This document shows positions 4,834-63,973 of a stretch of 64,000 bases of DNA, piece after piece. A program made the translations under genes and the position numbers. Source of the stretch: Cymbomonas tetramitiformis (Eukaryota > Chlorophyta > Pyramimonadophyceae > Pyramimonadales > Pyramimonadaceae); NCBI GenBank assembly GCA_001247695.2, contig LGRX02030584.1:1-64000 (forward strand). The letters are read 5' to 3'. The stretch's first letter is position 1. The number at the start of each line of letters is the position of its first letter. The notes beneath the pieces are model-generated. The model did no database searches. It saw only the letters and a program-made list of their open reading frames with translations, and was not told where the DNA came from.

Positions 4834-4839
4834 GTCCCG

Positions 4840-27270: not shown

Positions 27271-27271
27271 G

Positions 27272-40689: not shown

Positions 40690-40920
40690 CAACTAGGGGA
40701 ACAGTATGACAGCATTGGCAGTGATGATGACAGGAGCACATACAAAGAGTATGTGACTTGGATCCTGAGTTTGGATGAGCGTTACGCTTGGGTTGATGTG
40801 TATGATTTTGACACTGAAGTGCGCGAACACATGAAGGAAGGCAAGTTGACTTCTTGGAAGCCGTCGGAGCTCCTGTATCGGCTGGACATGAAGGCGTTTA
40901 AGGAGAAGGACGCCCCCTTT
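40690..40920 (+). pseudogene. Gag-like segment fused upstream of integrase
   Basis: In the same frame as the integrase, this part reads YKEYVTWILSLDERYAWVDV then YDFDTEVREH and SWKPSELLYRLDM. The W-x-x-VYDFD-x-x-R pattern resembles the gag of DIRS-like elements rather than a Ty3 RNase H end. The chimera begins to look like integrase at about 40925 (GLIYRKTIFGRQLY). Confidence 0.4.
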
Positions 40921-42199
40921 ACGGGGGGTCGTCAGGGGTTGATCTATCGTAAGACCATATTTGGCAGACAGCTGTACATTCCACCAACAGCTAAAGTCCC
41001 CACAGCTGACGGTGAGATCACACAGCTTCGCCACATTCTCCTTGATGAGTGCCACTCAGCCACTATTTCTGGTCATGTAGGCAAAAATCGCATGCTTCAT
41101 CTTCTGCGTAGCCGGTATTATTGGCCAGGAATGACAACGGCAGCCATCAAGTGCATTCGGGAGTGCCCCGTTTGTCAGCGCCAGAAAACGAGGCGACACA
41201 AGCCTTATGGTCAGGCACATATACGATATTCCGTGCCTAAGACAAAATGGCTAGATGTATCTCTTGATTGGATCACTGACCTGCCTATCACCACTAATGG
41301 GCACGACAGTATATTTGTGGTAATGTGCCAATTCTCTCATCGTTGTCATCTCATCCCCTTCAGCATGACCTGGACAGCTCAGCATACTGCTTCTATCTAT
41401 ATGCAGCATATCTTCAAGCTCCATGGTCTTCCGAGGAACATCATCTCAGATCGAGACCCCAGATTCACCTCTACATTCTGGCAGACACTGTGGAAATCTA
41501 CTGGTACGAGATTGTCCATGACGTCATCACACCATCCACAATCGAATGCTGCCAATGAGAGGAGCCATGCCTTCATAGAGGACATCCTCAGGTATTTTTC
41601 AAATTGTTGATTCATGATTTGATTTCACCATCCTCTGGTTTACAAACTGATTAAGTAGAATTTTTTTCATCCTCAGGTGTTGTTGCAATGATACTTCAGC
41701 CAATTCGTGGGAGGACAAGTTGCCTCTGGTGGAGTTTGCAATTAACAATACCGTTTCTGCATCAACTGGTTATTCACCATTTTATCTCGACTCGATGGCG
41801 CAACCACTTTCGCCTCATGACCTGGTCATCACTATTCCGCCAGAAGCTCCTGTTCCAATACAAAGAGCTATTCGAGATCATTTTGACCAGTACTCGACTG
41901 TTCATGCCAACGCGGTAGACAACATTTCCCGAGCAGCAGAAATTAGCCAAGCCAGATTCAATAAAACTCACATGCCTCGACAGTTTGCAGTTGGGCAGAA
42001 AGTTCTTTTACGGACTGAGTTTATTCAATGGACTGGTTTGACAGAGGCAGGCAGGCACTTTAAGCAGCCATATATTGGGCCGTTCACTATATCCAAAGTG
42101 CTTAGCCATGGGCGTGCATACGCGTTAGATTTCGGAAACCTCGATATCCGTATTCATCCAGTACAGCCTGTATCCAGATTAGAGTATGTTGTACAATGA
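40921..42199 (+). pseudogene. Ty3/gypsy integrase, copy 2, with intron-like insert
   Basis: H2C2 zinc finger (CHSATISGHVG ... CPVCQRQK), core with Asp in LDWITDLP, Asp in SDRDPRF and Glu in NERSHAFIEDIL, completing DD35E. At 41592-41676 an 85-bp insert with GT and AG ends interrupts the frame; removing it restores a typical integrase continuation (SWEDKLPLVEFAINN). The C-terminal part (RFNKTHMPRQFAVGQKVLL) ends with TGA at 42199, and a frameshift near 42185 separates it from the chromodomain. Upstream RT and gag of this element are missing. Confidence 0.88.
41592..41676 (+). other. 85-bp spliceosomal-type intron in a retrotransposon integrase
   Basis: Starts GTATTT, ends TTTTTTTCATCCTCAG with a clear polypyrimidine tract. 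Phase 2. An exact 11-bp direct repeat CATCCTCAGGT spans both borders (41583-41593 and 41668-41678). Confidence 0.75.
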
Positions 42200-45513: not shown

Positions 45514-46574
45514 TTGATTGAAAACATTTGTGTGCTCATAGGTGTGTCAGCCGTGATGTGGGAGATGCTGAGAAAGGTGCAAGAGCTATACATCAAAGAG
45601 GGCACGGCAAAAGGCCAGAAGACAGGCAGAACAACCTTTGAAAAGTTCATGAGTTTGATGGGAGTAGCTGAACCGTTTATAAAGCCCGTAACTGATGATT
45701 ATATTGCAGCATTCTGTGTTTATGGGTGTGTAGTGAAGCAGTGGAAAGTTAGCACTGTTAAGCAATACTTGCAAGGGGTGCGGGCCAAGCACGAGGACTT
45801 GGGCATGCAGTTTGTTCCCCTGAGGCAAAGAGTTGCTGTGTATCGAGCACTTCGGGGATTAGAGCGCATCTTTGTTTGTTTGGGAAGCATGTGAGTCAGA
45901 AACAAGCTATGACTTGTGAGATCTTGCTGTTATTGTGGGCCGTTATGGACTTCTCTGATGTGAATATGGTCACCTTGTGGGCCGTTATGTTGGTGGCATT
46001 GTTCGGGATGCTCCGAAAAGACAATGTCACAGTAGGTAAGGAGGGAGCCTTCAACCCCTTCCGGAACCTCACTCGGGAGGATTTTGTCCGGGATGGCCAG
46101 TTAAAGGTCCTTTGGGTGATTATTAAGTCAGCTAAGACTATTCAGTTCTTTGAAAGGGAGCACCGAGTGCCCCTGGTAGAGACTGGTTGTACTTTGTGCC
46201 CGGTAACTGCGGTGGACAATTGCTTTAAAGCGACACCTCAGGGGCCACAGTCTCCAGCTTTTGTGTGGAAGAAGGAGGGGGGGGGCGTGGTGCCCCTCAC
46301 TCATGCCACGTTTGTAAAGAATGTGAAGATGTTAATCCGAAAGGCCGGTATGGACCCTTCAAAATTCTCGGGGCACAGCTTCCGTAGGGGGGGTGCCACA
46401 ATGGCCTTTAAGTTGGGGGTGGACCACACCTTAATAAAGATGTTGGGTGACTGGATGTCAGATGCCTATCAGAGGTATGAAGAACTGTCCAGAGAACGCA
46501 GACTGGAGTTGCCTCTGCTCATGGCCCAGGCTGCACTGAAGCTGGGCAATGCTCAGAGCCGTGGGGTAGTCTAA
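45514..46574 (+). pseudogene. Tyrosine recombinase of the third DIRS-like element
   Basis: Two overlapping frames. The first (to 45894) holds the core-binding domain (FEKFMSLMGVAEPFI, TVKQYLQGVRAKHEDLG). The second (45876-46574) holds the catalytic domain with FGMLRKDNV (46003-46030), GHSFRRGG (46371-46394), GDW and the Tyr in YQRYEEL (46467-46490). A single frameshift near 45870 separates them. Stop TAA. All catalytic residues are intact. Confidence 0.9.
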
Positions 46575-47036
46575 GCCAGCCTGCATTTGGTGTAGGAGGT
46601 AGGCTGCAGCTTCTGGGAAGCTGCAGCGGGCTAGACTGACTTAGACTTTCGGGTCACTCCCTCCATTCTGAGTTAGTGAGAATAACATTAGTGCTGAATT
46701 GGAAACAAGTTATTAACTTGGTATATATTTGTGTGGAGAAATATTCTTGTAAGTGTACGGCAAATAGTAATTGCAATTAACAATTTAATTTGCTAGTCTG
46801 GGTACCCCACTTCGGAGGGGGGAGAGTTTATGCGAGAAATGGCCGTAGCGGCAGCGCTATTTCTCGGGAAACTCGGAGGAGGTCGAACACTGTCATCAGT
46901 GATGACAGACCGGTCGACAGGTTCCTGAGTGCTGCCCAGGTGGACAATGTCCACGGCTTTTCTAAGACGAAAGTTCGCAAAAAGTAGAGTAGACAAAGCG
47001 ACAGAGCCTGGTGCAGGTTTGCACACGGTAGGTGTG
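46575..47036. other. Junction between third DIRS-like element and LTR element
   Basis: AT-rich 3' end of the DIRS-like element up to about 46790, then a GC-richer stretch with a short open frame (46790-46987). No family recognised. A copy of the DIRS terminal repeats was not identified. Confidence 0.4.
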
Positions 47037-48079
47037 TGCCAGGGAACACTAGCCATGCCAAACTATTCGATTGGCATATTGTATTTACGCGTACTGGAGC
47101 AGTGAAATGGCAATGGGCTCGGAAGGGGACTCCCGAGCCATTGACTTCGTACTATGGGGAGCGAAAGCCTGGACTGGATTATAGCTGGCAGCATATTATC
47201 GTCCACCCTTCGGGTGCTCTACGCCGCTGGGAGCGTAATAGGGGCGGCGGCTGGTTTCTGGAAGACGCCACTCAGTTGAAGGCGCCGGTAGCGCCATTCT
47301 CATTACCGATCAGCAGCATGGGGCGCGGGAATCCGACGATTGTGATTGACGATGACGAATATCGTGGAATTCCCTACACGGGGCGTAAGCCTGTACACTC
47401 AGAGCCTACAGACAGTGACGATTCGGGTACAGGCGCTGTGTCCTGGAGTAAAGAGAAGTTACCGGATTCTGATGACAATGATGACGCGGGTGTCACTAAC
47501 AGTAAGGAGAAGCTACCAGGTTCGGATGACAACGATGACGCGGGTGTCACATATGACATGGACACTGCCAGTCCGAAATGGGAGCCAGCCTCGCCCGAAT
47601 ACGATGACACTGAGGATGACGTCAGCGAGTTCGATGACTTGGTAGCTGACGATGCTGAAGAACAAGCTGAAGCTCGAAGGTTGAAGAGACTGGGACTGCA
47701 ATTGATCATGGATGAGAAGGGTGAACTTATCTGGGTGCCAAAGGGCACATCCCCGACCTCACCTGTTCAGCCAGAGGATCCGCCTATCACCGAGCAGGAG
47801 TCTGAGGCCATATCTGAGGATGCCCCAGCCTCTGTGGTGGAGACTGTTCATGCACCACCAAAGAAACCTTATGGGTCAGATACTGGATTGACTTCAATGG
47901 GTGAGAATAAGGCTGGGGTGTCTGAAGAGACGAAGAGGCAACCTAGGAAATATCCGAGATGTTGGACACATGAGTATATAACTCAATTGAAATGCTCCAT
48001 AAGCAGTGACAGTGATGAAGAAGAAGTGCTTGACGTGGCTCCTCGTAGGAAGAAAGCAAAGATCAGCAAGGGACAATGA
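47037..48079 (+). CDS. LTR-embedded ORF, hypothetical 347-codon protein
   Basis: Open from the first bases of the LTR; no ATG occurs before about residue 94 (MGRGNPTIVIDDDEY), so either the long frame is entered by readthrough or splicing, or a protein of about 250 residues is made. The N-terminal part is rich in aromatic and basic residues (FDWHIVFTRTGAVKWQWARK, WQHIIVHPSGALRRWERN). The middle holds a 2-fold repeat of KLP-SDDNDDAGVT and strongly acidic stretches. The C-terminus is basic with an NLS-like PRRKKAKISKGQ. All three LTR copies keep the frame. No homology recognised. Confidence 0.55.
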
Positions 48080-48353
48080 AATCAACTGTCTTGATTAGGA
48101 TTGTCCAAATGCAGATTCTCTCATTAGGATTTGTATAGGTGGCAGATGAGGATATGCCAGCCGACATGGGACAGATCGATTAGAGATATGAACTGCGCGA
48201 CTTGAAACTATAAGACTTGAATATTGCCCATTTGGAGGCTGTTCTAACTTGAAGTAACTATTTGGAGGAGCTGTTGCTCAACCTGTTAATTTACTGGTCA
48301 ATCTTTCCTGCCATAAAGATATTGCAATTGCTTGAATTGTAGCCTTGTTCAAC
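47037..48353 (+). repeat. LTR, copy 1
   Basis: About 1.3 kb starting TGCCAGGGAACACT and ending CCTTGTTCA(ACT). Boundaries come from comparison with the minus-strand LTR at 54541-55862, where a polypurine tract AAGAGGGGAGGAG directly precedes it. Confidence 0.85.
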
Positions 48354-48552
48354 TGTTTATCTAGAACATTGCAATTTTGTACACTGCAAAATTGCCGACT
48401 ACGGACCTGTGCCCCAAGATTGAAGCAGATTAACCTCTGACTGACCCTTGAGCTTTGGCTCGGATACAGTCACGTGCTCAAGAAGTCTGCACTTGGAAGT
48501 GATTTGACTTCCCCAACGGTCAGATTTACACTTTTCCACTCCTAATTTCGAC
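48354..48552 (+). other. Leader of the LTR element
   Basis: 199 bp between LTR and gag ATG. The primer binding site should lie at its start (ACTGTTTATCTAGAACATTG), but I could not match it to a tRNA. Confidence 0.5.
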
Positions 48553-51500
48553 ATGATGCAGAACGCCAACACTGGACGCTCCCCTCCAACGTCGCCCACG
48601 TCGACTCCCAGGCGTACAAGGGGACGGCAGGCCAGTCAGCGCAGTACGAGAGGTGCTGCAGCCACTGGAACCACTGGCAAGGGGGCGAAGGGCACCTACA
48701 AGGCGCCCTCTCCGGGTCAGCCGCCGCAAGCTGCGACAGCAGCAGGGCGAAACATGAGAGCGACTCCCCAGCGGTATGTCAACTCAACCTCTCCTTTCCC
48801 TGGCATCCTGCGACTGTCCGGAAGCCGCGACCTGAGCCCTCCAGCTCCGCGCCAGCGAAGCCCGCCTCGGACTCGAGACCGGACCCCGCCACCGCCGCGC
48901 TGCAGGAGCCCACCGCGGACGCGCGACATGAGTCCTCCAGCTCCAAGACCGCGAAGCCCTTTGACATCCTACAGGACTCCACATACTTGGTCTGGAGCTA
49001 CGGTGATGACCTCCCCGCACGGCCAGCTGCCCACGCCATTCCTCGAGAACGCGCTTCAGGCTGAGTCCGCGGGAGCAGCCTCTGCGGGACCATCTCTACC
49101 TGCTGACCGACCACCTCGCGACTCGATCGCTGCGCGCGAAATGACCGAGGTCAACATTGCAGCACTTGAGCAGGACATGCAGAATGAGGCGAACGAGCAG
49201 AGACCAGGACTTCGCCAATTTCCCTCCCGCTCCGATGTGGCCAACTGGCGAAAGCGCCAGCAGCAGGGTGAGAATCTCACCTGGACTCCGCGCCCTAACC
49301 AAGGGGGTGTGGGGGCAGCGGGGAGGTCAGAAGACATGCACCAACGCATTGCTGGCGAACCCATGGCACACTCAATGCATCCAACTCCCTCCTCAACAAG
49401 CAACGGGGAGGTGAGGGCAGCGGGGAGGACAGGTGGCTCCGGCTTGACAGGTGGCCCACGCCACATAAGCATAGCATGTTCTGGGCATTCGCTGACATCG
49501 CCGCTTACGGAGAAGGTGAACGGTGACTCTCTGACCTCACCGATTACCGATACCGTTACGGAACCTAAGATGATCGGTGACTCTATGGCAAGGTTATCGG
49601 TGACTTTCGAGTCCGAGAAAGACAGCGAGGCAACTTCATTGACGCCTTCACTGACTCAGGCGACTACGGAGGCAGCTACGGTTACGGATATGCTCGAGTC
49701 CCTGTTGAACAGCGAGTCCAGACCTTTGACTACCTCGCTGACCTCAACAACTACGGATATGCCCGAGTCCCTGTTGAACCGCGAGTCCAGACCTTTGACT
49801 ACCTCGCTGACCTCAACAACTACGGAGCAGCCAGTCAGCACAGTCAGCTCAGTCAGTTACGCCGACCTCGCACTCAGGCGTGGCGTTGGACTCGCAGCCT
49901 ACCAGCCGCCTCCTCTTCCAGTCATCGAACCCCCTTCTCAAGCAGATGTCCTCAGCAGAATTCCAGTCAGAAATTTACCTCTGAACCAGCTTTCTCGCCG
50001 GGAGAGGCGCCATCAGCGATGGGAACAGAATCAGCAGCGCCTGGCAGAACAGCGCAGAGCGCTCTTCTCTGACCCCGCCTCAGCCAGAACGCCCTCAGAT
50101 GCCTCGGTCCCCGCGCTGAACCATCAGCATCAATCCCTAATGCAGAATCAGATGATGTTAGAAGTATCAGAGTACATGCAAAATCTACATCAGCAAGTGC
50201 TCCAACACTATCCTCATCTGACTTCGGTTCTACCAGCGGTGGGCGCTCCACCTATGACGCCCTACCAGCACACCTTAGGATGGGCGAGCGGTTTACCAGG
50301 TGCACCGGCGCCAGCTGCTGGATCAGGTCCTTGGCTGGTACCAGCACCGGCTCAACCGGTTCCCGCACCGGCTCAACCGGCTCCAGCACCGGCTCAACCG
50401 GCTCCGGCACCGGCTCATCCGGCGCCGGCACCATTTCAGCCAGATCCACCGGCTACCGGCGCATCGCCTTCTGACTCCGCTGAGCCTGATCATCCGTCAC
50501 CAGGAAACTCGCCCCCGCCTTCAGACAATGGTGAACCACGACACAGGCGTCTAGATGTGTTGTTATGGACTTTAGAAGGAGCCTCCTTCTGGTTGAGAAA
50601 TCACCTGTCCTCTTCCTCCGCAGTGACTGTCAGCCACGGCGCTGAGGCACAATATTCTTACCGACTGCCAACCATGCCTGGAAGCGCCAGTCACTTCATA
50701 ACCGATACAAATCGGATTTGGATGACTATGCGACACATCGGAGTGGACATCCAAGACCTGGCGCAGCATGGGTCAGTGCATACTCCTGTGCGCCTGACTG
50801 AGATTGAGGACAGTGACGCTTTCACTCTGGAAGTGGAGAAAACGCAAGTGGATGAAGCGCGGCGTTGCGCGGAAAGCCGTACTGGAACTCAGCAGAGACG
50901 CCTGCCATTGTACTCTGGGTGACCATCGCGGAAAATGCCTTAGAGTCCGAGTTGACAGAATTTGACCCCCTGGGACTCCAAATTTGGGCAGCATTTTCAT
51001 CCTCCGAGGCGTACTTGTTTCGAGGAATGGCGACTGGCCACCAACCAACTCCCGCCACAGTACCAGCTAGACTGGGCGTCAACCGGTTTCCCTCTGGTGT
51101 TCCCAGCGCAGAAGAGTACAGATCACCTGGAAATTCCTTGCCAGCGGCCCCGGGACTCCTGCCAGTGGACCAGCGCCTTTCTCAATTTCCAGGGCACCAC
51201 GATCTTATGGGAGCGGCTTCTCCAGGCGATGTCTACCGTGAATCCAAGACAGTGGCTGATGTGCTCAAGCTGATCAGAGACATTCCTATGTACCCCTCCT
51301 CCGCTGAGCTAATCACCACTGACGCTGACATTGCCGCACTTCCACCTTTTTCTGAAGCGCTGGTCAATTTTCTGTCAATGGGCGTAGTCACCTTCGCCCT
51401 GGGTCGCATGAGTGCTTATCGCCTAGACCTGACCATGATCACCATGCCGGAGATCTTGAAGGAAGTGGCGCAACGCAAACTGCAACCGCGATCCCTGACT

Positions 51501-52376
51501 TTTCTCAAGCAAGGTGGTATGTTGAACTCGGAGGCCTGGAACCGGCGTTACGCCACTTTGGCGCCTTTCCTGGCCGACGTAGCCAGGAGCGTACTGGATG
51601 ACATCGCGCTGGTAGGACTAGCGGGGACCGTGATGCGCATGGCGCAACGACGCGAAGAGACTGCGCGTTTGTTCGCCACTCGTCTGGTATCCTGGCACGA
51701 GGTAGTGCAGTTATTGGCAGACGCCATGCCCAACTGCCACGCCATCAGCCAGCAGCAGCTATTGTATCAGTTCTGGTCTGGACTGCGACTGAAGCAAGCT
51801 GTGATGGATCGCCTCATTGAGGATCGGTTGGATCTGCAAAGTCCAGCGAATTGGGAGAGCAATCATCCCGGATCCACCGCGCTGCAGCATATCATCACTG
51901 TGGCCACCAAATTGGAGCGCAGTGAAGCTCTAACCGCAGCGCGAACCTCTCCCGCCTCGGCACCTGCGAACCGAAGTCCTGCCTGGAGGAATGGTCGCTC
52001 GTCCTCCAGACTTAACGCCGTGCAGGACGCTGGGGAGGAAGACACTACTGACCTCGACCCCGCCGACCTCAGGGTGCAGCATGCCGTGCCGCCCAGCCCG
52101 GCGGGATTGACCAGGCCGCCACGCCGATGCTACGTCTGCAACTCTGACTCCCATTTATGGGCTAACTGCCCCGACGAGGCCAAAAAACGAGCCTGGATTG
52201 CTGACGCCCCAGCTCGTTTGGCACGCCGCCGCGCTGCAAATGAATCTCATATCGCAGCGCTGGAGACAGAATGGGAGGATTTGGAAGATGAAGCGGAAGC
52301 GCTGGAGTATTTTCAGAACGAGGAATCGGCCGCAGCGTCCTCCTCGGGTCAGCAATCTGCGGAAGAGGAGGACTGA
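48553..52376 (+). CDS. Gag polyprotein with zinc knuckle, frame change near 50870
   Basis: ATG at 48553. The first frame (to 50922, 789 residues) is Pro/Ser/Arg-rich with internal repeats: a 21-bp unit coding PAPAQPA (about 50335-50430) and a 69-bp duplication with PESLLN and SRPLTTSLTSTTT (49685-49825). The second frame (50865-52376, about 500 residues) has no early ATG and holds the structured capsid-like part (helical, with LMGAASPGDVYRESKTVADV) and a zinc knuckle C-x2-C-x4-H-x4-C in CYVCNSDSHLWANC (about 52132-52173). A minus-one shift in the 58-bp overlap would fuse them; this could be programmed or a mutation. Copy 2 has lost this region. Confidence 0.78.
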
Positions 52377-52414
52377 GTGTCCTCCCGCCGGTGGGACGCC
52401 GGCGACAGGGCGGT

Positions 52415-54535
52415 ATGGGTAACCGCCCCTGGGCAAGAAGTACAGCCTTCGCCCACAACCGAGGGAATATCCAGCAGGATCCTCCGCCACCCCCCAACCC
52501 TCTGGCCGCTCGAGGATATGGATTCACCTGGTCTGCCGATCAGAGGCGACAACGCCATCTCGACAGAACCAGAACCCTACGGGATGAACCCTCGTTGTCC
52601 AGTACCGCTGTTTACACAGCAAACCTTTCCACTGAGCAGAGCCGGCGAGAACATCACTTGGTTTCCCGGCGCCATCAGCGGTCGCCACGAAGGTCACCCA
52701 CTTCGTCGCCTGAGCGCTCGAAGCCTCCCGTTATGTTCAGTGTAGATCGCTCCCTTGGAACTGGTGATCGCAATCCAGCTCCACGACGCGAGCGTGGCGA
52801 AACGCCCCGCGTTGACCCCACAGACCTTGGGGATAACCCTAACCCTAACCCTAACCCTAACCCTAACCCTGAGACATCAGTACTGGCAGCACGGGATGAG
52901 GATGATGGTCAGGAGGAGGAGACCCAGTGGACCTTCAACCCACTCAACACCCCCTGGCGGCAAACTCCTCGGCAGCGAGTACCGAGGAAAGCTCCGGTGG
53001 AGAGGATGCGAGCCTTGAGGCAGCGGATCCAGGATGTAACGCTACCCGCTGTTTCACACCCTCTGGACGACAGTGGGGAGGAAGGGGGTGGAACTTCAAA
53101 AACTGGCCCAGCTTCCGAACCCCCACCTTTTAAACTTCGACCTGAGGTGTTTCCTTCGACGTCTCGACCAGCAGCGTGTCCAACCTGGGCAGAAAGGGCG
53201 TCAACCCCAAGCGCAGAGCGCCCTACGAGCGCAGCGCGCAAGCGCACTGGAAAACCTCGCAGCAGAATTCCGAGGACTGTACGAGACCGACTGCAGCATG
53301 AGGCAGAGGTTACGAGGTTGGGAGAGGAACCCCCAGGACTTCGAGCGGAGTCACTGGCGGATCGCACGCGCGCTTGGAGAGAGATGACGCACCCGGAGCA
53401 CATGGCCGCGGCAGCGCTGGTAAAGGAGAATGAGAAATGGAGAGATGCATGGGTACCCGAAGGGTGGCGCAGATATCGCCGCCGCTGGTACAGATGGCAT
53501 GGGAAGGTCACCCCTGACCTGACGATAACCGAAGGAGCAGTTCAGCTATCTCTGGAGACCGAGTGCGGTACTATCCCAGGTTCTGGTGGAGATGTAGGAA
53601 TTCCAGACGCCTGGTGCAGTCTATACCGGGTGCACCAATGGAACCAGCGAGAAAGGGAAGCTGCGGAAGAGGCGGCTCACCTGACCCTACCATCAACAGC
53701 AAGTGATTCATTCTCCCTGGACTCAGCGGAACCATCAGAGGCGAATCCAGCGACAACTCTGGATTTAACCTTATCTCCATCCAGTTCGCAGCCCGCAACT
53801 TCTGGGGACATTTCAGACCTCGAGGACTCCCAGCGGTCGCTCAACTTCACGCAGCAGTTGATGGAGCGACAGCTGGCCATCGCCAGATCGGAGAACAATC
53901 CAAGTGTGCTGACAACGGTGACAGAAGGAGTGGAGCCGACTCCCCTGAAAACCATCCAGGAGGAAACCCACCTGGAACTGCTACTAACCATTCAGAAACA
54001 GCAACGCCATCGTCTGCGGCCGATCCTGGAAGGTAATGAAGCAGTGGCAGCACCAGCGAACGTCACCGACGCTCAGGCGGCACCGCGGGAAGAAGAAACC
54101 CCCTCTTTCACTCCAAAGTCCGAACCAGAAGATAGCTCTGGGGAGGAAGAGGAGGAAGAGATTTCCATCCAACCTCTTCGCTCTTACCCTCTGGAAAGCC
54201 GCACGCAGAGCCGCGCCAGACGACGCGCTCAAGGACAGGAGCGACGCGCCAAGGAGCGACAGCTACAAGCAGATCGCGAACTGGAAGGTGGATGGTACTT
54301 TGGTCCGGATCATCGTTCTCAGCCTGCACCACCGCGCACAAGACCTATCCGGTCTAAGCAGCGCGTACCTTTGCATCACCCAGTACGAGCAGCCATCTGT
54401 GCACATCTGCGACGCGATGGTCAAGTAATGTGGAACCAGGACAGTCAGCTAACTGCGATTCGGGACAAAGAGGGAACGCTGCTATTGGTGTTCTGGGCCT
54501 TGCTGAAGGGACAGCGAGTGCGCGTGCTGGTGGAT
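52415..54535 (+). pseudogene. Pol N-terminal part, truncated at the protease
   Basis: ATG at 52415 (MGNRPWARSTAF). The long disordered leader contains a DNPNPNPNP run encoded by CCCTAA repeats. Acidic and basic patches follow. It ends in the aspartic protease approach RVRVLVDS, where the sequence breaks before the expected G of DSG. Identical in outline to 61385-63282 on the minus strand. Confidence 0.85.
52835..52870. repeat. (CCCTAA)n tract inside pol, copy 1
   Basis: Six tandem CCCTAA hexamers in frame, coding Asn-Pro repeats. Confidence 0.93.
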
Positions 54536-54540
54536 TCAAG

Positions 54541-55862
54541 TTAGTTGAACAAGGCTACAATTCAAGCAATTGCAATATCTTTATGGCAGGAAAGATTGAC
54601 CAGTAAATTAACAGGTTGAGCAACAGCTCCTCCAAATAGTTACTTCAAGTTAGAACAGCCTCCAAATGGGCAATATTCAAGTCTTATAGTTTCAAGTCGC
54701 GCAGTTCATATCTCTAATCGATCTGTCCCATGTCGGCTGGCATATCCTCATCTGCCACCTATACAAATCCTAATGAGAGAATCTGCATTTGGACAATCCT
54801 AATCAAGACAGTTGATTTCATTGTCCCTTGCTGATCTTTGCTTTCTTCCTACGAGGAGCCACGTCAAGCACTTCTTCTTCATCACTGTCACTGCTTATGG
54901 AGCATTTCAATTGAGTTATATACTCATGTGTCCAACATCTCGGATATTTCCTAGGTTGCCTCTTCGTCTCTTCAGACACCCCAGCCTTATTCTCACCCAT
55001 TGAAGTCAATCCAGTATCTGACCCATAAGGTTTCTTTGGTGGTGCATGAACAGTCTCCACCACAGAGGCTGGGGCATCCTCAGATATGGCCTCAGACTCC
55101 TGCTCGGTGATAGGCGGATCCTCTGGCTGAACAGGTGAGGTCGGGGATGTGCCCTTTGGCACCCAGATAAGTTCACCCTTCTCATCCATGATCAATTGCA
55201 GTCCCAGTCTCTTCAACCTTCGAGCTTCAGCTTGTTCTTCAGCATCGTCAGCTACCAAGTCATCGAACTCGCTGACGTCATCCTCAGTGTCATCGTATTC
55301 GGGCGAGGCTGGCTCCCATTTCGGACTGGCAGTGTCCATGTCATATGTGACACCCGCGTCATCGTTGTCATCCGAACCTGGTAGCTTCTCCTTACTGTTA
55401 GTGACACCCGCGTCATCATTGTCATCAGAATCCGGTAACTTCTCTTTACTCCAGGACACAGCGCCTGTACCCGAATCGTCACTGTCTGTAGGCTCTGAGT
55501 GTACAGGCTTACGCCCCGTGTAGGGAATTCCACGATATTCGTCATCGTCAATCACAATCGTCGGATTCCCGCGCCCCATGCTGCTGATCGGTAATGAGAA
55601 TGGCGCTACCGGCGCCTTCAACTGAGTGGCGTCTTCCAGAAACCAGCCGCCGCCCCTATTACGCTCCCAGCGGCGTAGAGCACCCGAAGGGTGGACGATA
55701 ATATGCTGCCAGCTATAATCCAGTCCAGGCTTTCGCTCCCCATAGTACGAAGTCAATGGCTCGGGAGTCCCCTTCCGAGCCCATTGCCATTTCACTGCTC
55801 CAGTACGCGTAAATACAATATGCCAATCGAATAGTTTGGCATGGCTAGTGTTCCCTGGCACA
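54541..55862 (-). repeat. LTR, copy 2 (3' LTR)
   Basis: Full-length counterpart of 47037-48353 on the opposite strand, apparently identical in the coding part. A polypurine tract (AAGAGGGGAGGAG on the minus strand, about 55865-55880) precedes it. Confidence 0.88.
54818..55861 (-). CDS. LTR-embedded ORF, second copy
   Basis: Same 347-codon frame as at 47037-48079, with identical translation. Same reservations about the start. Confidence 0.55.
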   Translation of the reverse strand: MPGNTSHAKLFDWHIVFTRTGAVKWQWARKGTPEPLTSYYGERKPGLDYSWQHIIVHPSGALRRWERNRGGGWFLEDATQLKAPVAPFSLPISSMGRGNPTIVIDDDEYRGIPYTGRKPVHSEPTDSDDSGTGAVSWSKEKLPDSDDNDDAGVTNSKEKLPGSDDNDDAGVTYDMDTASPKWEPASPEYDDTEDDVSEFDDLVADDAEEQAEARRLKRLGLQLIMDEKGELIWVPKGTSPTSPVQPEDPPITEQESEAISEDAPASVVETVHAPPKKPYGSDTGLTSMGENKAGVSEETKRQPRKYPRCWTHEYITQLKCSISSDSDEEEVLDVAPRRKKAKISKGQ

Positions 55863-55942
55863 ACTCCTCCCCTCTTAGCTTGTTAGTACAAAGAGATGAT
55901 AACTCAGAGTCATTTGTACAGCAGCTAAGATCCAGACACAGA

Positions 55943-58900
55943 TCAGCCATGCTTATGGATGCGTGATATGCTTTTCTGATCGAACAGGTGCTCGAAGAGT
56001 TGGCGAAGCAATCCAGAGGGCAGAGGGTATACAGCAGCGGAGACTCCCGCTCCTTGTTGCCCAGGATGAGGCCCCAGTTGAGCAGTTTCCGGATGTGATC
56101 CCAGCGTCTGTTGGTGAAGGCAAGGAGTATCCATCGTACAGTACCGCAGGTCCACTGGAGGAGGCGACTGTGTCCAGATGCAAGTAGGCTTGCGGTAGCC
56201 AGTGCCATACATACAGTAAGAGCAATACAACGGAGTGGGTAACCGACGAACTACAGGTCGAAATCGCAGCGCAAAGGGAAACCTGCCCATCGGATTTTCC
56301 ATAAACCAGTGCTTGGGTTTGAGGAAGTCGAAGATTTGGAGCGTACGGCGTACACAGGCATCAGCCTGTCGCAGTTGTCGCACCCCTGTGGTCTTAGCCT
56401 GACTGTATTCAGTGCACGGTGGGCTAGCCCAGATGACGTCAAAGTAACCAGGCGCGTAACGCTTGAAGTCCCAGTCCTGAACCTTCTCAGCGTAGGTAGG
56501 TTGCCAGCGAGGATCATGATCTACGGTGACCACGGTACTCTTCGGATAACATGACAGGAAACTTCTCTCCACACTACCTGTACCACTGAAAAGTACTAGT
56601 AGTCGCAACTCGCGTGTCGAGACCACAGAGTCCAGAAGAGCCAGATGCGTCACAAAGGCGTCAGAGGAGCGACAGTATTGTTCCCAAGGTAGGCAGTTGT
56701 CCAGAGAAAGAGGTTCCCCTTCATCAGCGGTGTCCAGGAAGGTTAAAGCTCTGGCGCGTTCCCGCCTTTGCTTCCGCTGCATTCTGACCTCCTGTAAGGC
56801 TTTTTCGCGGGCTTGTCCTTCTCGGGATAGTCTCAGTTGTTCAAACTCTGTGAGCTGTTCGAGTTCACCCCCGTAGTTCAACGACTCGCGAGTCTTCCAG
56901 GAGTCATGAGCATTAGAGTACCCAGTCCAGCGAACCAGAAATTCTTCTACTTCCTTACCTCCTCTCGCAGGTTTCACTCTTCGAGCCAGAATCTTAGACA
57001 CATGTGTCTGGGATTGTCCATCCACGAGAACCTTGGCAGGAGTAGGGGTTTGCTGACGCAGCGCAAAAGCTTCATCTGCAGTGCGGTATTCCTTGAGGCG
57101 ATGCTGCGCAAAAACATCGTGAATACGCCATTTAGGGGGTAACTTGAGCCGATAAGCTACCGGAGCACCTCTGTCAATTTCGGGTAGCTCTCGCTGCTGG
57201 TCACTGAAGAACCTCTCGGTGATGGGTAAGGGCCCGTGCCAGCGAGGTCCCAGCTTCCTGAAGGATTCGCGGTTCATGATATTTTCCGTGAGATGCTTGG
57301 CATCTACCCAGACCAAGTCTCCCAACTGAAAGGATTTGGCGGTGTGACGCTGGTCAAACTGATGTCGCTGGCGTTGCTGTGCCAGTTCTAGCTTAGTGCG
57401 GGCGTCCTCTAGTTGAGCCGCGAATTTACTAGCCATCTCGTGGGCAGTACCTTCTCCACCCTTGCGCCTGGAGTGTTGTCCAGCAGCGGCTTGCAGGAAC
57501 AAATCCAGTTGCGACATAGGCGAGTGCCCCAAGACCAACTCGAAAGGGGTAAAGCCGGTTACATCGCTCCGCGTATCGTTTATGGCGAACTCCACGTTGG
57601 CACACCACAAATCCCAGTCCTCTGGATTGCTGCCTACGAAGGACCTCAGCATGTCTTCTACCACGCGGTTGGTATGTTCAGCTTGTCCGTCCGAACGAGG
57701 GTTATAAGGCGTAGTGGAGGCCACTTTGGTTCCCATAAGTCTCATCAATTCCTTCCACATAGCATCCTGAAAACGAGGGTCGCGGTCAGAGACAATCTTC
57801 ATAGGGGTGCCATGTAGTTTCCAGATGTGGTCGAAGTAGATTCGAGCTATAACCTCAGCGGAGCTGTCCTGGAAGTTCAACGGGATGATGTGAACCATTT
57901 TGCTGAGCTTACACGTGAAAGTAGCAAAGGCATCGTGATTCCGCGCCGTGACTGGCAGTCCAGTAACAAAGTCCACACTGACCACTTGCCATAGTCGCGT
58001 AGGAATAGTGTGTGGGTTCAGCAATCCATCCGGGTAAGAATTTCTCGGTCGCACCGCTTGACAGATAGCACAAGATGAAACCCAGCGTCCCACATCTTCT
58101 GCTGCCCCTTTCCACCAGAAGCGTCGCAGGACTCGTTCCAGAGTTTTGTCCCTGCCCGCGTGTCCAGCGGAAACAGAGGCGTGCGCCTCTTGCAGCACTA
58201 CCTCACGGAGTGGTGAATCTTCTCCCAGTACCAACTGATAGCGTCCAGCGCTCACCTTCCACAACACATTTCCCACCACGCAGAAGTCACGAGTGCGTTG
58301 ATGCGGAGCTTCTTGGATTTCTTTCCTTAAAGTCTGTAGGGGGCCAGGTCGCCCATATTCCGCTTGCAGCGCTTTGAGAAACTGACCTCCTGATATCTGC
58401 TGATGCAGGTCTCGAACGCTGGCCGCTTCTCCCGTACGCACGATAGGAGGAGGGGAACTCGTCTTCCTTTCCCGCTTGACACGCTGTCGAGCTGGCGGAG
58501 CGTACACCACTAGCAGGGGCCAAGGGAGATCCAGAAGGACTCCATCCGGGGCAGCGAACATCTGCACAGGTTCTCCTTGAGCGTCATGGGTAGGAATAAT
58601 GTACTCCACTCTCATTCCCGCAGATCTGAACAACTGCCGCCACTGTGGCATGCGAGACTGAAAGTCAGGAAGGACAAAGAGAGCTGAAGTATTCTCAGGG
58701 TCCAGACGCCATTCTTCCACATATCTCCTCAGTACGGCCTCGATGGTCAAATGGTTGGAGGAGAAGGGAGGATTGCACCAGACGTTCAACCCTCGCCAGT
58801 TTTCCTTCAAGCAGTCCGTCCAGTAGCGGTTGACCTGACGATTCTTTCCTCCCAAGTCGCAACAGGCGTCCACCTCGAAAGGTCCATATTCTTGACTCAA

Positions 58901-61900
58901 GAAGTCGAACATGTCCGCACGGAACTTCCAGTCCTGTCGGTCGCTGGGCTCCAGGAGTCTGGTTGAGGCCTCGCTGCACTTTGGCGTTGCTGAGTAGTCA
59001 ACAGGGGTCTTCCTGGGAGAAGGAGGCGAGGATGCTGTCAGTTTGCCAGAGCGCGTCTGAACTGCCAGGGTTGCTTCCTCGTACCCGGTTTCGGCCAGCT
59101 GCAGGGTATGTAAGGCGTCCATCCAGAGTTGAGGGGAGTCCATCCAGGTGAGAGTCCCACTGTACGCGAGAACTGGTTCCGGATCTTTGGTCTTGGCGCT
59201 GTTGGACTTGCGCTCCTTCAACTTGTTGGGATCTACCACTCCCAGGGGCGCACGTCCTTGGCGAGACTCTTTACCAGCGGCAGGTCGAAACTTGTTGGCA
59301 GTGTCTGCGGCTGAAGGAGGTCGCTGCGGTTTCCCAGTAACCGGGTGCACAAAGCCAGCTTCTACCAGTCCTTCTCTCGCGGAAATTTCCTTGTAGTCGG
59401 GTCGCCTGGACAGAGCGTCTGGAACCCAGAGTAGCGCCCCAGGAATGTACTCCATCTCGGGTACCCCTACCTCCACTAGATCCATGTACCATCGGGCTTG
59501 GCGTCGGCTGAGAGGTTGTCCGGGTGCCATTAACCAGACTAGGGGCTTATGGTCACCCTGCAATTGGAACTCGGTCCAGATGAGGTAGTGTCGCCAAGTT
59601 TGAGTAGTGCAGTGATGGAGAGCGCAGAGTTCTCTTTCGCCAGCATGGTAGTTCTGCTCGGCTCCATTAAACTGTCTGCTTTCAAAGGCGATGGGTTGCA
59701 ATCCATTTCCTACGTCTTGCATCAGTACTCCCCCCAGCGCCACTCCACTGGCGTCAGTTTGTACCACGAAAGGATGCCGTCCTTCGGCCGCCGCTTTCAT
59801 ATCGGGTAGCGCCAGAGTGGGTGAAGAACATAGCGCCTTCTTAATCTCCTCGAAGGCCCAACGCTGCATGGGTCCCCATAGCCAAGCGACATCCCCTTTG
59901 GTGAGCTGAGTCAAGGGTTGTGCTACTTCAGAGAAGCCCAGCATGTACCGCCGGTAGTACCCAGCCAACCCCAAAAATTGGCGCACATGCGTGGCGTTTT
60001 CCAGAGCGGGCCAGTCCCTGATGGCGGCCAACTTGTCATGTTGAGGTTGACTTCCTTCCCGTGAGATAACGTGCCCCAGAAAGCGTATCTGGGTCTGCAG
60101 TAGTTGACACTTAGACTCCTTGAGGTAGATGCCCTGGTTCTCACAGACTTCGAGAAATTGCTGGAGATGGGAAAGATGCTCCTCCAAGGTGTTGCTGAAG
60201 AGGATACAATCGTCCAGGAATATTCTTACAAAAGGAAGATGTCCCAGAGCTCGCTGCATGCGTCTCTGATAGCAAGAAGGACTGTTGGTCAACCCCATGG
60301 GCATCACCAACCACTCATACGAGCCATAGGGAGAAGTGAACGCCGTCTTTTCCACATCCTCAGACGCCATAGCCATCTGCCAGAACCCATCTACTGCATC
60401 GAAGGAGGAGAAGTACTTGGCCCCATGCATGGAGTCGAACAACTGCTGAATGTCGGGAAGTGGATATTTGTCCTTGACGGTCAGGCTGTTGATGGCTCGG
60501 AAGTCGCAGACCATTCTGAGTACTTCAGGTTTCCCTGGCTTGGGAACCATCAGCACTGGTGCAGCGAACGGACTTGAGGAAGGCCTGATGTAGCCCTTAC
60601 TCAGGAGTTCATCCAGGCGTTCTCGCAGTTGAGTCAGCTCCACCATGGACATCTTATAGGGCCTCTTAGCGGGCGCGATACCATTCCATCCCTCTTGCAG
60701 TCTCACATGGGCCACTTCATCTTTTCGCAGGGCGTCAAAGTTGGGCAGCGCTTCGCGAATTACTCGAGGTGAAAAGGACTCGATCAGCTTTTGAAACTTC
60801 TTTCTCCACTCGGGGGAGATTGAAGGGTCCTCCAAACTCTCGCTGGTGGCCATCGCTGATAACATCGAAGTCCCTACCAAAGGTGTCGCATAGGCCACTA
60901 AGATGTCGTGGGGTGTCGCGGCACTGTCCATTCCCGCATATCTGCGCCGATAGGCTTTGATCTCCTTGGTCGCTTGGGCCGCAGATAACATTACCATCGG
61001 TTCCAGAGCCATCGCGGTTCTCTCGCCTTTGCGTGTGGAGCTACGCCCCGGCGAACATCCCTGTATCCGCACGGATTTGCCATGATGGCGAAACTTGACT
61101 GATCCCCACCCATCATAGTCCAGCGTGACCGGCGAGAGGTGTCTCAACCACCTTCCTCCGAGTACAATGTCCACCTTGATGCCCAGAGGAAGTACTCGCA
61201 TCTTGATGACCTCGGAGTAAGTCCCCTCTGAAGTCTCGGCGGTCAGCTTGCCGTAAGCGACTTGCGCAGAGGTCTGCACTGACCCATCCGCCAGGGTAAC
61301 GTTCAGCGGCATTCCATTAGTGCGAACTGTGAGGTTCAATCTCTTGACGCACTCACTGGAGATGAATTCATCCGAGGCCCCAGAATCCACCAGCACGCGC
61401 ACTCGCTGTCCCTTCAGCAAGGCCCAGAACACCAATAGCAGCGTTCCCTCTTTGTCCCGAATCGCAGTTAGCTGACTGTCCTGGTTCCACATTACTTGAC
61501 CATCGCGTCGCAGATGTGCACAGATGGCTGCTCGCACTGGGTGATGCAAAGGTACGCGCTGCTTAGACCGGATAGGTCTTGTGCGCGGTGGTGCAGGCTG
61601 AGAACGATGATCCGGACCAAAGTACCATCCACCTTCCAGTTCGCGATCTGCTTGTAGCTGTCGCTCCTTGGCGCGTCGCTCCTGTCCTTGAGCGCGTCGT
61701 CTGGCGCGGCTCTGCGTGCGGCTTTCCAGAGGGTAAGAGCGAAGAGGTTGGATGGAAATCTCTTCCTCCTCTTCCTCCCCAGAGCTATCTTCTGGTTCGG
61801 ACTTTGGAGTGAAAGAGGGGGTTTCTTCTTCCCGCGGTGCCGCCTGAGCGTCGGTGACGTTCGCTGGTGCTGCCACTGCTTCATTACCTTCCAGGATCGG

Positions 61901-63282
61901 CCGCAGACGATGGCGTTGCTGTTTCTGAATGGTTAGTAGCAGTTCCAGGTGGGTTTCCTCCTGGATGGTTTTCAGGGGAGTCGGCTCCACTCCTTCTGTC
62001 ACCGTTGTCAGCACACTTGGATTGTTCTCCGATCTGGCGATGGCCAGCTGTCGCTCCATCAACTGCTGCGTGAAGTTGAGCGACCGCTGGGAGTCCTCGA
62101 GGTCTGAAATGTCCCCAGAAGTTGCGGGCTGCGAACTGGATGGAGATAAGGTTAAATCCAGAGTTGTCGCTGGATTCGCCTCTGATGGTTCCGCTGAGTC
62201 CAGGGAGAATGAATCACTTGCTGTTGATGGTAGGGTCAGGTGAGCCGCCTCTTCCGCAGCTTCCCTTTCTCGCTGGTTCCATTGGTGCACCCGGTATAGA
62301 CTGCACCAGGCGTCTGGAATTCCTACATCTCCACCAGAACCTGGGATAGTACCGCACTCGGTCTCCAGAGATAGCTGAACTGCTCCTTCGGTTATCGTCA
62401 GGTCAGGGGTGACCTTCCCATGCCATCTGTACCAGCGGCGGCGATATCTGCGCCACCCTTCGGGTACCCATGCATCTCTCCATTTCTCATTCTCCTTTAC
62501 CAGCGCTGCCGCGGCCATGTGCTCCGGGTGCGTCATCTCTCTCCAAGCGCGCGTGCGATCCGCCAGTGACTCCGCTCGAAGTCCTGGGGGTTCCTCTCCC
62601 AACCTCGTAACCTCTGCCTCATGCTGCAGTCGGTCTCGTACAGTCCTCGGAATTCTGCTGCGAGGTTTTCCAGTGCGCTTGCGCGCTGCGCTCGTAGGGC
62701 GCTCTGCGCTTGGGGTTGACGCCCTTTCTGCCCAGGTTGGACACGCTGCTGGTCGAGACGTCGAAGGAAACACCTCAGGTCGAAGTTTAAAAGGTGGGGG
62801 TTCGGAAGCTGGGCCAGTTTTTGAAGTTCCACCCCCTTCCTCCCCACTGTCGTCCAGAGGGTGTGAAACAGCGGGTAGCGTTACATCCTGGATCCGCTGC
62901 CTCAAGGCTCGCATCCTCTCCACCGGAGCTTTCCTCGGTACTCGCTGCCGAGGAGTTTGCCGCCAGGGGGTGTTGAGTGGGTTGAAGGTCCACTGGGTCT
63001 CCTCCTCCTGACCATCATCCTCATCCAGTGCTGCCAGTACTGATGTCTCAGGGTTAGGGTTAGGGTTAGGGTTAGGGTTAGGGTTAGGGTTAGGGTCATC
63101 CCCAAGGTCTGTGGGGTCAACGCGGGGCGTTTCGCCACGCTCGCGTCGTGGAGCTGGATTGCGATCACCAGTTCCAAGGGAGCGATCTACACTGAACATA
63201 ACGGGAGGCTTCGAGCGCTCAGGCGACGAAGTGGGTGACCTTCGTGGCGACCGCTGATGGCGCCGGGAAACCAAGTGATGTT
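55943..63282 (-). CDS. Pol polyprotein: PR, RT, RNase H, Dam-like MTase, integrase, chromodomain, C5-MTase
   Basis: One uninterrupted frame of about 2,440 codons (numbering from 63322). In order: disordered leader; aspartic protease LVDSGASDEF (about 646); RT with IFLDDCILFS (about 1034); RNase H with QTDASGVALGG (about 1189); Dam-like domain with FEVDACCD, VWCNPPFSS (about 1517) and ALFVLPDF; integrase H2C2 finger HASVSAGHAG ... CAICQ (about 1716-1754) and DDE core (SVDFVTG, SDRDPRF, AEHTNRV, about 1782-1881); chromodomain EEFLVRWTGYSNAHDSWK (about 2105-2155); cytosine-5 methyltransferase with motif I LLVLFSGTGSVERSF (about 2235), motif IV catalytic Cys in ASPPCTEYSQA (about 2300), ENP (about 2342) and YGTGYRKPTCIWT. 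Stop TGA. All catalytic signatures look intact. The native start is deleted and the first in-frame Met lies near residue 42. Confidence 0.93.
55946..56640 (-). other. Cytosine-5 DNA methyltransferase domain of Pol
   Basis: C-terminal 230 residues. The order of motifs (FSGTGS, PPC, ENP) is that of C5 methyltransferases; ENP replaces the more usual ENV. The region after ENP (LYCSYCMYGTGYRKPTCIWT) resembles small phage and algal forms. Expected product is 5-methylcytosine in DNA, target unknown. It is fused directly to the chromodomain through an Arg/Glu-rich helical linker (about 56870-56700). Confidence 0.88.
58480..58960 (-). other. Dam-like methyltransferase domain of Pol
   Basis: Lies between RNase H and integrase. 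FDFLSQEYGPFEVDACCD is followed by GLNVWCNPPFSSN and ALFVLPDF. The same arrangement of motifs occurs in the DIRS elements of this window (2.4-2.8 kb and 45.1-45.5 kb), here with intact NPPF. Confidence 0.82.
63051..63096. repeat. (TTAGGG)n tract inside pol, copy 2
   Basis: About eight GGGTTA hexamers, in frame on the minus strand (Asn-Pro repeats); two hexamers longer than copy 1. Confidence 0.93.
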
Positions 63283-63973
63283 CTGACCAGTAAATTAACA
63301 GGTTGAGCAACAGCTCCTCCAAATAGTTACTTCAAGTTAGAACAGCCTCCAAATGGGCAATATTCAAGTCTTATAGTTTCAAGTCGCGCAGTTCATATCT
63401 CTAATCGATCTGTCCCATGTCGGCTGGCATATCCTCATCTGCCACCTATACAAATCCTAATGAGAGAATCTGCATTTGGACAATCCTAATCAAGACAGTT
63501 GATTTCATTGTCCCTTGCTGATCTTTGCTTTCTTCCTACGAGGAGCCACGTCAAGCACTTCTTCTTCATCACTGTCACTGCTTATGGAGCATTTCAATTG
63601 AGTTATATACTCATGTGTCCAACATCTCGGATATTTCCTAGGTTGCCTCTTCGTCTCTTCAGACACCCCAGCCTTATTCTCACCCATTGAAGTCAATCCA
63701 GTATCTGACCCATAAGGTTTCTTTGGTGGTGCATGAACAGTCTCCATCACAGAGGCTGGGGCATCCTCAGATATGGCCTCAGACTCCTGCTCGGTGATAG
63801 GCGGATCCTCTGGCTGAACAGGTGAGGTCGGGGATGTGCCCTTTGGCACCCAGATAAGTTCACCCTTCTCATCCATGATCAATTGCAGTCCCAGTCTCTT
63901 CAACCTTCGAGCTTCAGCTTGTTCTTCAGCATCGTCAGCTACCAAGTCATCGAACTCGCTGACGTCATCCTCA
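63283..63973 (-). repeat. LTR, copy 3 (truncated 5' LTR)
   Basis: Matches the 3' half of the other two LTRs, including the C-terminal 140 codons of the embedded ORF (63505-63945), with one amino acid change seen. Broken at both ends. Confidence 0.88.

Follow-up and report, generated by a model that had tools for sequence, protein, structure and literature searches.

We analysed a stretch of 64,000 nucleotides from the genome of the green alga Cymbomonas tetramitiformis (GenBank assembly GCA_001247695.2, contig LGRX02030584.1, positions 1 to 64,000), referred to here as the window, which carries two copies of a long terminal repeat (LTR) retrotransposon: copy A on the plus strand and copy B on the minus strand. 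The pol gene of copy B is a single open frame whose product runs, in order, through an aspartic protease (PR), reverse transcriptase (RT), RNase H (RH), a Dam-like domain, integrase (IN), an SH3-like domain, a chromodomain, and a cytosine-5 (C5) methyltransferase (Table 1). The element is almost certainly a Ty3-type, chromovirus-like LTR retrotransposon of this alga in which both methyltransferases are regular parts of Pol.

Table 1. Features of copies A and B in the window, with residues numbered along the Pol frame of copy B.
Feature	Position	Strand	Details
5′ LTR of copy A	47035..48351	plus	identical to copy B 3′ LTR
ORF-X (open reading frame within the LTR)	46988..48079; second copy 54818-55882	plus; second copy minus	almost wholly inside the 1317-bp LTR, ~350 codons
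gag region of copy A	48508..52376	plus	two overlapping frames, 48508-50922 and 50856-52376
First part of pol, copy A	52292..54537	plus	overlaps gag, stops inside protease
3′ LTR of copy B	54546..55862	minus	1317 bp, TG...CA
Polypurine tract	55863..55875	minus	AGAGGGGAGGAGT; adjoins 3′ LTR of copy B, upstream side
Pol frame, copy B	63331..55943	minus	2462 codons, open; residue n = 63331-3(n-1)
Aspartic protease, 639-731	61139..61417	minus	PF13650, PF13975, PF08284
Reverse transcriptase, 929-1089	60065..60547	minus	PF00078 (RVT_1) 8e-32
RNase H, 1186-1286	59474..59776	minus	PF17917 2e-27
Dam-like N6-adenine methyltransferase domain, 1463-1615	58487..58945	minus	PF05869, phrog_111, TIGR01712; NPPF 1520-1523
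Integrase H2C2 zinc-binding domain, 1706-1763	58043..58216	minus	PF17921 (Integrase_H2C2) 2e-18
Integrase core, 1782-1878	57698..57988	minus	PF00665 (rve) 2e-5; PFV (prototype foamy virus) integrase chains 2e-15
Chromodomain, 2110-2154	56870..57004	minus	PF00385 1e-6, above cut-off
Compact C5 methyltransferase domain, 2241-2450	55982..56611	minus	FSGTGS 2248-2253, PPC 2304-2306, ENP 2345-2347
5′ LTR fragment of copy B	63284..63973	minus	690 bp, joined straight to pol

An earlier note on this DNA had proposed this architecture for a single open frame, and the Pfam matches bear it out in the same order; the motifs that it named, NPPF in the Dam-like domain and FSGTGS, PPC, and ENP in the C5 domain, are all intact in copy B. 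Its start of the frame at 63282 was wrong: the open frame begins at 63331, and in other genome copies the Pol frame reaches up to 2577 amino acids. The PR-RT-RNase H-integrase order with a DDE-type integrase is that of Ty3/Gypsy elements, which the copies also resemble in their TG...CA LTRs, polypurine tract, and short target-site duplication. The chromodomain, with its PF00385 match above the cut-off, lies C-terminal to the integrase, as in chromoviruses, and H2C2 and rve matches stand in place of the tyrosine recombinase that replaces the DDE integrase in DIRS elements, the rve match being below its cut-off (25.1 bits against 32.6). The protease was matched at residues 639-725 (2e-8), and an SH3-like domain (SH3_Tf2-1, PF24626; residues 2054-2083, 3e-8) precedes the chromodomain, which also matches the Protein Data Bank (PDB) chain ‘Chromo domain protein 1’ (E 0.001). 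The top PDB matches of Pol are the Ty3 Gag-Pol chain 7q5b and the RT/RNase H chain 4ol8. A match to EutK_C (4e-4, below the cut-off) was taken as probably spurious.

The profile matches expected for the two methyltransferases were found for Dam above the cut-off and for C5 with PHROG 757, while the C5 match to PF00145 stayed below its cut-off. The Dam-like domain matches PF05869 at residues 1463-1532 (5e-9, 36.5 bits against a cut-off of 28.1) and, with its NPPF, has the NPP[FY] motif of Dam and phage N-6-adenine methyltransferases. By its matches to phrog_111 (2e-12) and TIGR01712 (5e-7, below the cut-off) it is phage-type; its best phage match scored 50 bits, and it is 33% identical over 95 amino acids (55.8 bits) to the domain of a DIRS-type element in the window. 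In the C5 domain, the PF00145 (DNA_methylase) match (2245-2346, 6e-4, 19.8 bits) falls just under the 22-bit cut-off, which some relatives exceed (e.g., P0022, 27.8 bits). This low score leaves the identity of the domain sound, because a 226-residue piece matches PHROG 757 ‘DNA methyltransferase’ (8e-17) as well as 896 proteins of similar length, some of which are element fragments, and because the predicted fold agrees: an AlphaFold2 model has a methyltransferase fold with a mean pLDDT (predicted local distance difference test) of 81.6. Motif I (FxGxGS), motif IV (PC), and motif VI (ENx) are present within this S-adenosylmethionine-dependent methyltransferase fold. Among the 120 of the 896 similar-length proteins that were listed, the SH3/chromodomain profile picks out 17 and the Dam profile one.

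The pairing of the two enzymes is not peculiar to copy B. We searched the genome with the 2462-residue protein and scored 19 places, the best full-length matches among 29,736 loose first-look candidates and thus a lower bound. All 19 copies, copy B included, hold residues 17-2462 at 97-100% identity; 16 are stop-free and the other three have one stop codon each. A census of copies had been suggested as a check, and both domains occur in every copy scored; since the search scores the best matches alone, truncated copies, or copies without both domains, would be missed. A second search with the related protein P0014 recovered its own locus (100%), 17 loci that are nearly full-length at 72%, and two loci in two pieces each. 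The P0014 locus and five of the 17 were read, and all six have both methyltransferase domains with the motifs WCNPPY, ASPPCTEYS, and ENPRG. Together, the 19 copies and the six P0014-type loci rule out a chance fusion in one copy and, for pol, an assembly artefact joining two genes.

We estimated the ratio of nonsynonymous to synonymous polymorphism (pN/pS) over 171 pairs of the 19 copies, including the three with a stop codon. Among the domains it was lowest in RT-RNase H (0.03) and rose through C5 (0.05), integrase (0.07), Dam (0.09), and the SH3-chromodomain part (0.12) to the protease (0.13); the N-terminal region reached 0.30, and the chromodomain-C5 spacer, at 0.44, was under the least constraint of all parts measured. 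In 14 chosen pairs, mean identity was 57% for C5, 55% for Dam, 62% for RT, and 63% for integrase, and it was 34.6% for the RNase H-Dam spacer, 42.5% for the Dam-integrase spacer, and 32.5% for the chromodomain-C5 spacer. These comparisons indicate that both methyltransferase domains are under selection against amino-acid change.

A protein search with the C5 part, in which long proteins only were kept, returned 52 relatives; C5 is present in these by construction, Dam is not. Nevertheless, Dam stands alongside C5 in 44 of the 52 (45 of 53 rows with the query, using local profiles built from these rows). Seven of the relatives are named Cymbomonas, and one C. tetramitiformis protein, P0011, is 95.5% identical to the query Pol over 1477 aligned positions. 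The order PR-RT-RH-Dam-IN-SH3/chromo-C5 is found in 36 of 53 rows, where one profile covers SH3 and chromodomain jointly, and 11 further orders occur, some of them from partial gene models. PPC is intact in 53/53 rows and ENP in all 52 rows covered there, while Dam reads NPP[FY] in 32 of 45; full conservation in one enzyme and partial conservation in the other mark C5 as the constant component, and the motif counts indicate that Dam is auxiliary, being off its catalytic motif in some lineages. Four of 14 Dam-bearing proteins found (P0174-P0177) have no C5 match, which is no proof of true C5 loss because these Cymbomonas gene models appear incomplete or chimeric (two carry the label ‘partial’).

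Domains of other kinds appear in some of these polyproteins. P0050 is a Ty3-type polyprotein with C5, Dam just under the cut-off, a chromodomain, and an SLBP histone-hairpin-binding domain at residues 553-623 (PF15247, 6e-23); P0020 has a PHD finger at residues 1269-1313, between Dam and integrase; and P0046 has a NUDIX domain (2.5e-8) at residues 79-174, before C5. A contig filed under a Verrucomicrobia metagenome-assembled genome (L081) has a single frame in which profiles match both integrase and C5, with Dam and a chromodomain recognised by eye, and is for that reason probably a mis-binned eukaryotic contig. A genome search with the Dam profile, in which the best 150 of 7257 candidates were scored, gave 104 matches of 51.0-51.1 bits in frames of up to 3110 amino acids, a plateau that suggests one very numerous young family.

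To place these arrangements on a phylogeny, we reconstructed an RT-RNase H tree from 49 of the 53 rows, the rest lacking most of RT; it contains the query and the search relatives only, was made by a quick method, and is unrooted. This tree revealed a core clade of 37 rows with a support of 100 in the Shimodaira-Hasegawa-like approximate likelihood ratio test (SH-aLRT), in which Dam lies between RNase H and integrase in 37/37 rows and C5 is C-terminal, behind the SH3/chromodomain region, in 36/37; in P0022 it is N-terminal. In the remaining 12 rows C5 is N-terminal, between RNase H and integrase, or behind integrase. A C5 tree of 136 rows combined 49 of the 53 retroelement rows (those with more than 140 residues), 65 of the 120 similar-length proteins (selected by length and start), and the best-scoring 22 of 174 locus frames. 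The retroelement rows do not form one clade in it: there are eight label changes, at least four of them forced by starred branches, in a tree that has many weak branches and in which rows labelled stand-alone may include element fragments. Given this scatter, repeated capture or exchange of C5 is likely.

The earlier note had associated the C5 domain with the cytosine methyltransferases already known from retroelements; its closest kin appear to lie elsewhere, in a compact, virus-type family distinct from the Dnmt3 type. Members have about 210 residues, and behind motif VIII they share a conserved C...C...H: of 54 rows, which include a second partial match in P0022, 48 have the first C, 44 the second C, and 43 the H, with gaps or other letters in the rest. 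The family also occurs as whole proteins of ~194-238 amino acids (26 aligned), and at least 589 viral-contig stretches encode relatives (80 of the 589 were kept). Scans of viral contigs with two stand-alone C5 proteins gave no confirmed relative for P0068 and 71 relatives for P0101; one shorter match is named Prorocentrum minimum (P0118). In a Foldseek search of a viral structure library, the best match was the putative cytosine DNA methyltransferase of Tetraselmis virus 1 (E 9e-20, template modelling (TM) scores 0.76/0.79, 36% identity). In a profile search against solved structures the nearest was DNMT2 (5e-5), followed by DNMT1 and HaeIII, and DNMT3 was absent among the 22 profile matches and two single-sequence matches in the PDB; a Dnmt3-type origin is therefore not supported by sequence. 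Foldseek against the PDB ranked DNMT3B, M.HaeIII, and DNMT1 first (TM 0.46-0.55 by query length, first eight), so that DNMT3B leads by fold alone, but fold does not separate the C5 subfamilies.

Two further loci bear on the distribution of C5 enzymes. On a contig filed as Octadecabacter (L083), a compact C5 gene stands beside what to the eye look like a recombinase-type and a large replication-type protein, and the contig resembles a small eukaryotic DNA virus. Elsewhere in the Cymbomonas genome, a retroelement frame (L207; G000:C1905:53300-55300) carries a DNMT3-like C5 domain behind RNase H, in the place held by Dam in the window element; its RNase H falls in the same Pfam family as that of the window element, and DNMT3 accounts for 29 of the 34 PDB matches of the frame. 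We infer that this frame is Ty3-type, its integrase lying outside the 2001 bases read. The Cymbomonas genome therefore appears to contain retroelement-borne C5 enzymes of two kinds. A PF00145 profile search of the genome gave 124 matches, with the best 123 of 6837 candidates scored; one of these was read, and they are probably mostly of the second, DNMT3-like kind.

Retroelement cytosine methyltransferases are known from dinoflagellates and one charophyte, and the Dam-like domain from DIRS elements (PMC5890265). A close parallel is KnitGypsy-Dnmt3 of Klebsormidium nitens, a Gypsy/Ty3 Pol with an in-frame C5 enzyme under purifying selection (Ka/Ks, the ratio of nonsynonymous to synonymous substitution rates, < 0.2). 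Its enzyme is Dnmt3-type, whereas that of the window element is compact and virus-type; it has a DIRS-like repeat arrangement, and the passages on it mention no Dam or chromodomain (PMC5890265). SymbioDIRS-Dnmt3 and SymbioLINE-Dnmt of Symbiodinium also encode C5 enzymes, and SymbioDIRS copies methylate CpG de novo in yeast, but according to the same passages these belong to other retroelement classes, have Dnmt3 or Symbiodinium-specific enzymes, and lack a Ty3 integrase (PMC5890265). DIRS elements, one of which lies in the window at 2317-4839, share the Dam-like domain behind RT but use a tyrosine recombinase (PMC5890265), and the DIRS-type frame of the window has no Pfam match to C5 or a DDE integrase. 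Chlamyvir-type chromoviruses of green algae have a Ty3 Pol with a chromodomain, and the name has been given to a Cymbomonas retroelement (PMC10675990); no word beginning with ‘methyl’ occurs in PMC10675990, and the relevant part of PMC3350952 mentions no DNA methyltransferase.

Parts of the combination had been noticed in the same host. The 2015 genome paper reported homology to chromodomain, RNase H, and cytosine DNA methyltransferase on three of four scaffolds with >10,000x coverage (Burns et al. 2015, PMC5741210); its account of these repeats, in the portion relevant here, states no element, Dam, domain order, or C5 type. Dam- and Dcm-encoding Ty3/Gypsy and DIRS elements have been mentioned as groups, not as one protein, in the section concerned (PMC6338049), and Ectocarpus has Gypsy elements with chromodomain and Tudor domains as well as a DNA transposon with a methyltransferase protein of another kind (PMC12477816). 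The corresponding portions of PMC12695648 and PMC9998398 contain nothing on this kind of element. The earlier note knew of no description of Dam and C5 in one Ty3 Pol, and we likewise found none in full-text searches of the open-licence literature, which leaves out most subscription papers and all preprints. What appears to be new here is the presence of C5 and Dam together in one Ty3 Pol, in a recently moving, multi-copy family, and the recurrence of the pair across the relatives.

The most likely explanation for these results is that the element modifies its own DNA. Both enzymes would be packaged with Pol and travel with the cDNA-integrase complex, and they would methylate the element's own double-stranded cDNA, the newly inserted copy, or both; the mark would make the cDNA resistant to nucleases specific for unmodified DNA, or alter how the host reads the new copy. 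Packaging and action on cDNA or insertion are suggested by the position of the enzymes in the polyprotein and by what has been proposed for other retroelement enzymes; self-methylation has been put forward for C5 enzymes of other retroelements, and in yeast two of these enzymes carried out de novo CpG methylation (PMC5890265). We regard the chances that both enzymes target the cDNA or insertion of their own element as evenly balanced. A fuller version, in which a large Ty3 lineage protects its cDNA, while it is reverse transcribed and integrated, with a virus-derived two-base kit (5-methylcytosine plus N6-methyladenine or N4-methylcytosine), with C5 indispensable, Dam optional, and repeated independent capture at different places in Pol, is tentative and, taken as a whole, doubtful. 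If the enzymes do act on the element's own DNA, this would be a natural system of a retroelement writing its own base modifications, and any account of why mobile elements encode enzymes of this sort would have to consider gene transfer from viruses to retroelements; the two-base kit, if true, would be a case of a eukaryotic retroelement using prokaryote- or virus-style modification.

This interpretation must be made cautiously, as several observations weigh against it. The KnitGypsy-Dnmt3 enzyme showed no activity in yeast, a result called inconclusive there (PMC5890265). Methylation of the element's own copies, as envisaged in the earlier note, is not supported by their substitutions: among 184 private differences in the 19 copies, with transitions counted, there is no CpG excess (10 of 880 CpG bases vs 49 of 3185 other C/G; ratio 0.74, p=0.43), a test that is weak because of the youth of the copies and because C5 may have a target other than CpG. 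DNA as the substrate of C5 is an assumption, because the nearest solved relatives by profile are DNMT2, one chain of which is named tRNA methyltransferase, and DNMT1. In 13 of 45 rows Dam has a sequence other than NPP[FY], so not every lineage can depend on adenine methylation. The spacers flanking Dam are constrained like Dam itself (pN/pS 0.09 and 0.05; 19 copies); selection on Dam is thus not separable from that on its neighbours at short range, and the contrast comes from the deeper comparisons. Finally, copies without the methyltransferase domains may exist beyond the best matches scored in the genome.

One may postulate an alternative in which the virus-derived enzymes protect cDNA from restriction-type endonucleases of giant viruses, whether co-resident or infecting, or of integrated viral elements, with no role in chromatin, for which chlorovirus restriction-modification is the model. 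The existence of compact C5 as whole proteins, the Tetraselmis virus 1 structure match, and the phage-type Dam would fit, as would the differing places of C5 across element lineages, which are expected of a portable protective function; moreover, a complete giant virus is integrated in the host, which has many polinton-like viruses as well (PMC10675990). The Tetraselmis virus 1 match, like the viral-contig relatives, speaks to kinship, not function, however, and no restriction enzyme was found, none having been searched for. We consider this scenario unlikely.

Chromatin manipulation, in which the chromodomain guides Pol to a histone mark, with C5 methylating the target chromatin so that new copies mimic or soften host silencing, appears less likely again. 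Three aromatic cage residues are the mark of CHD_I. At the cage positions, which we placed from HP1 on the assumption that they correspond, the element has H2110, W2135, and Y2138, so that only two of three are aromatic and it would fall outside CHD_I; with H2110 in place of an aromatic residue, reading of a histone mark is not supported, and among the 46 rows in which the first position is occupied, it is Y or F in just 9. The position of C5 behind the SH3/chromodomain region throughout nearly all of the core clade would suit such a role, as would a PHD finger in some relatives (PF00628, 1e-10, in P0020) and the CHH and CHG methylation borne by KnitGypsy copies (PMC5890265); yet the spacer that joins chromodomain to C5 is the least constrained part of the frame, and the 19 copies carry no trace of CpG deamination. 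Of the interpretation in the earlier note, then, a Ty3 chromodomain element with Dam-like and C5 domains in one Pol stands, whereas targeting of a chromatin state, methylation of its own copies, and the supposed kinship of C5 do not find support.

It is improbable that the substrate of the compact C5 is, as with DNMT2, an RNA (for example the element's primer tRNA or genomic RNA): DNMT2 chains are the best matches of the domain by profile (5e-5) and its sole matches by single sequence (0.37, 0.56), but these scores are weak and Foldseek places DNMT3B, M.HaeIII, and DNMT1 first. Least probable of all is retention of one or both domains as DNA-binding or scaffold parts without catalysis, which would account for a Dam domain kept despite the 13 departures from its motif but is at odds with the invariant PPC and ENP of C5 and with the intact NPPF of copy B Dam at a pN/pS of 0.09.

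Neither copy in the window is complete as assembled. Copy A (47035-54537) runs from an LTR through gag into the first part of pol; copy B consists of the 690-bp LTR fragment, the whole of pol, and the 3′ LTR, with no gag. The bases upstream of ~63284 in copy B are those of the LTR fragment. A deletion has removed the end of this LTR, the stretch behind it (with the would-be primer-binding site), and gag, which leaves copy B defective outside pol. Copy A ends at 54537, inside the protease, beside the opposite-strand LTR of copy B (54537-54546); a simple nested insertion fails to explain this arrangement because the junction bases do not continue pol. The gag frame at 50856-52376 has a weak CCHC match (PF21890, 0.004, below the cut-off). 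ORF-X has no Pfam match; it is 92% identical in P0011 and 39% in P0059. GATC counts are unremarkable (LTR 5 vs 5.0 expected, gag 15 vs 14.0, pol 20 vs 28.1).

A search of the genome with the LTR, in which the best 40 of 2297 candidates were scored, gave four pairs of LTRs, whose sequences were read; the two members of each pair share a contig and span 15.2-16.5 kb end to end. The two LTRs of these pairs differ by 0, 4, 5, and 7 substitutions in 1317 bp, one pair also by three gap columns, and three of the four have 5-bp target-site duplications; this low divergence and the duplications indicate that the family moved recently. The GGGGAGGAGT end of the polypurine tract also precedes the 3′ LTR in the four other pairs, where the tract is the same or nearly so. 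One pair has TGGTATCAGA behind its 5′ LTR, which we take to resemble an initiator-Met primer site.

Scans of the 64-kb window against Rfam and for tRNAs gave no match. Other mobile elements share the window with copies A and B. A DIRS-like element on the minus strand (1290-6495) has RT and a Dam-like domain (PF05869, 3e-8) that reads NLPF, not NPPF, with a recombinase frame at 1290-2570 that was recognised by eye and has no Pfam match. A second DIRS-like element, also on the minus strand (23882-28180), has RT (PF00078, 3e-14); its Dam match is weak (0.002) and reads NPPW, and one of its frames weakly matches Tudor-like (0.002) and phage-integrase SAM-like (0.003) domains. On the plus strand lie an integrase fragment of another element at 40582-41610 (H2C2 6e-18, rve 3e-7) and, at 45762-46574, what remains of a further element, a frame that weakly matches tyrosine recombinases (PF00589, 1e-4).

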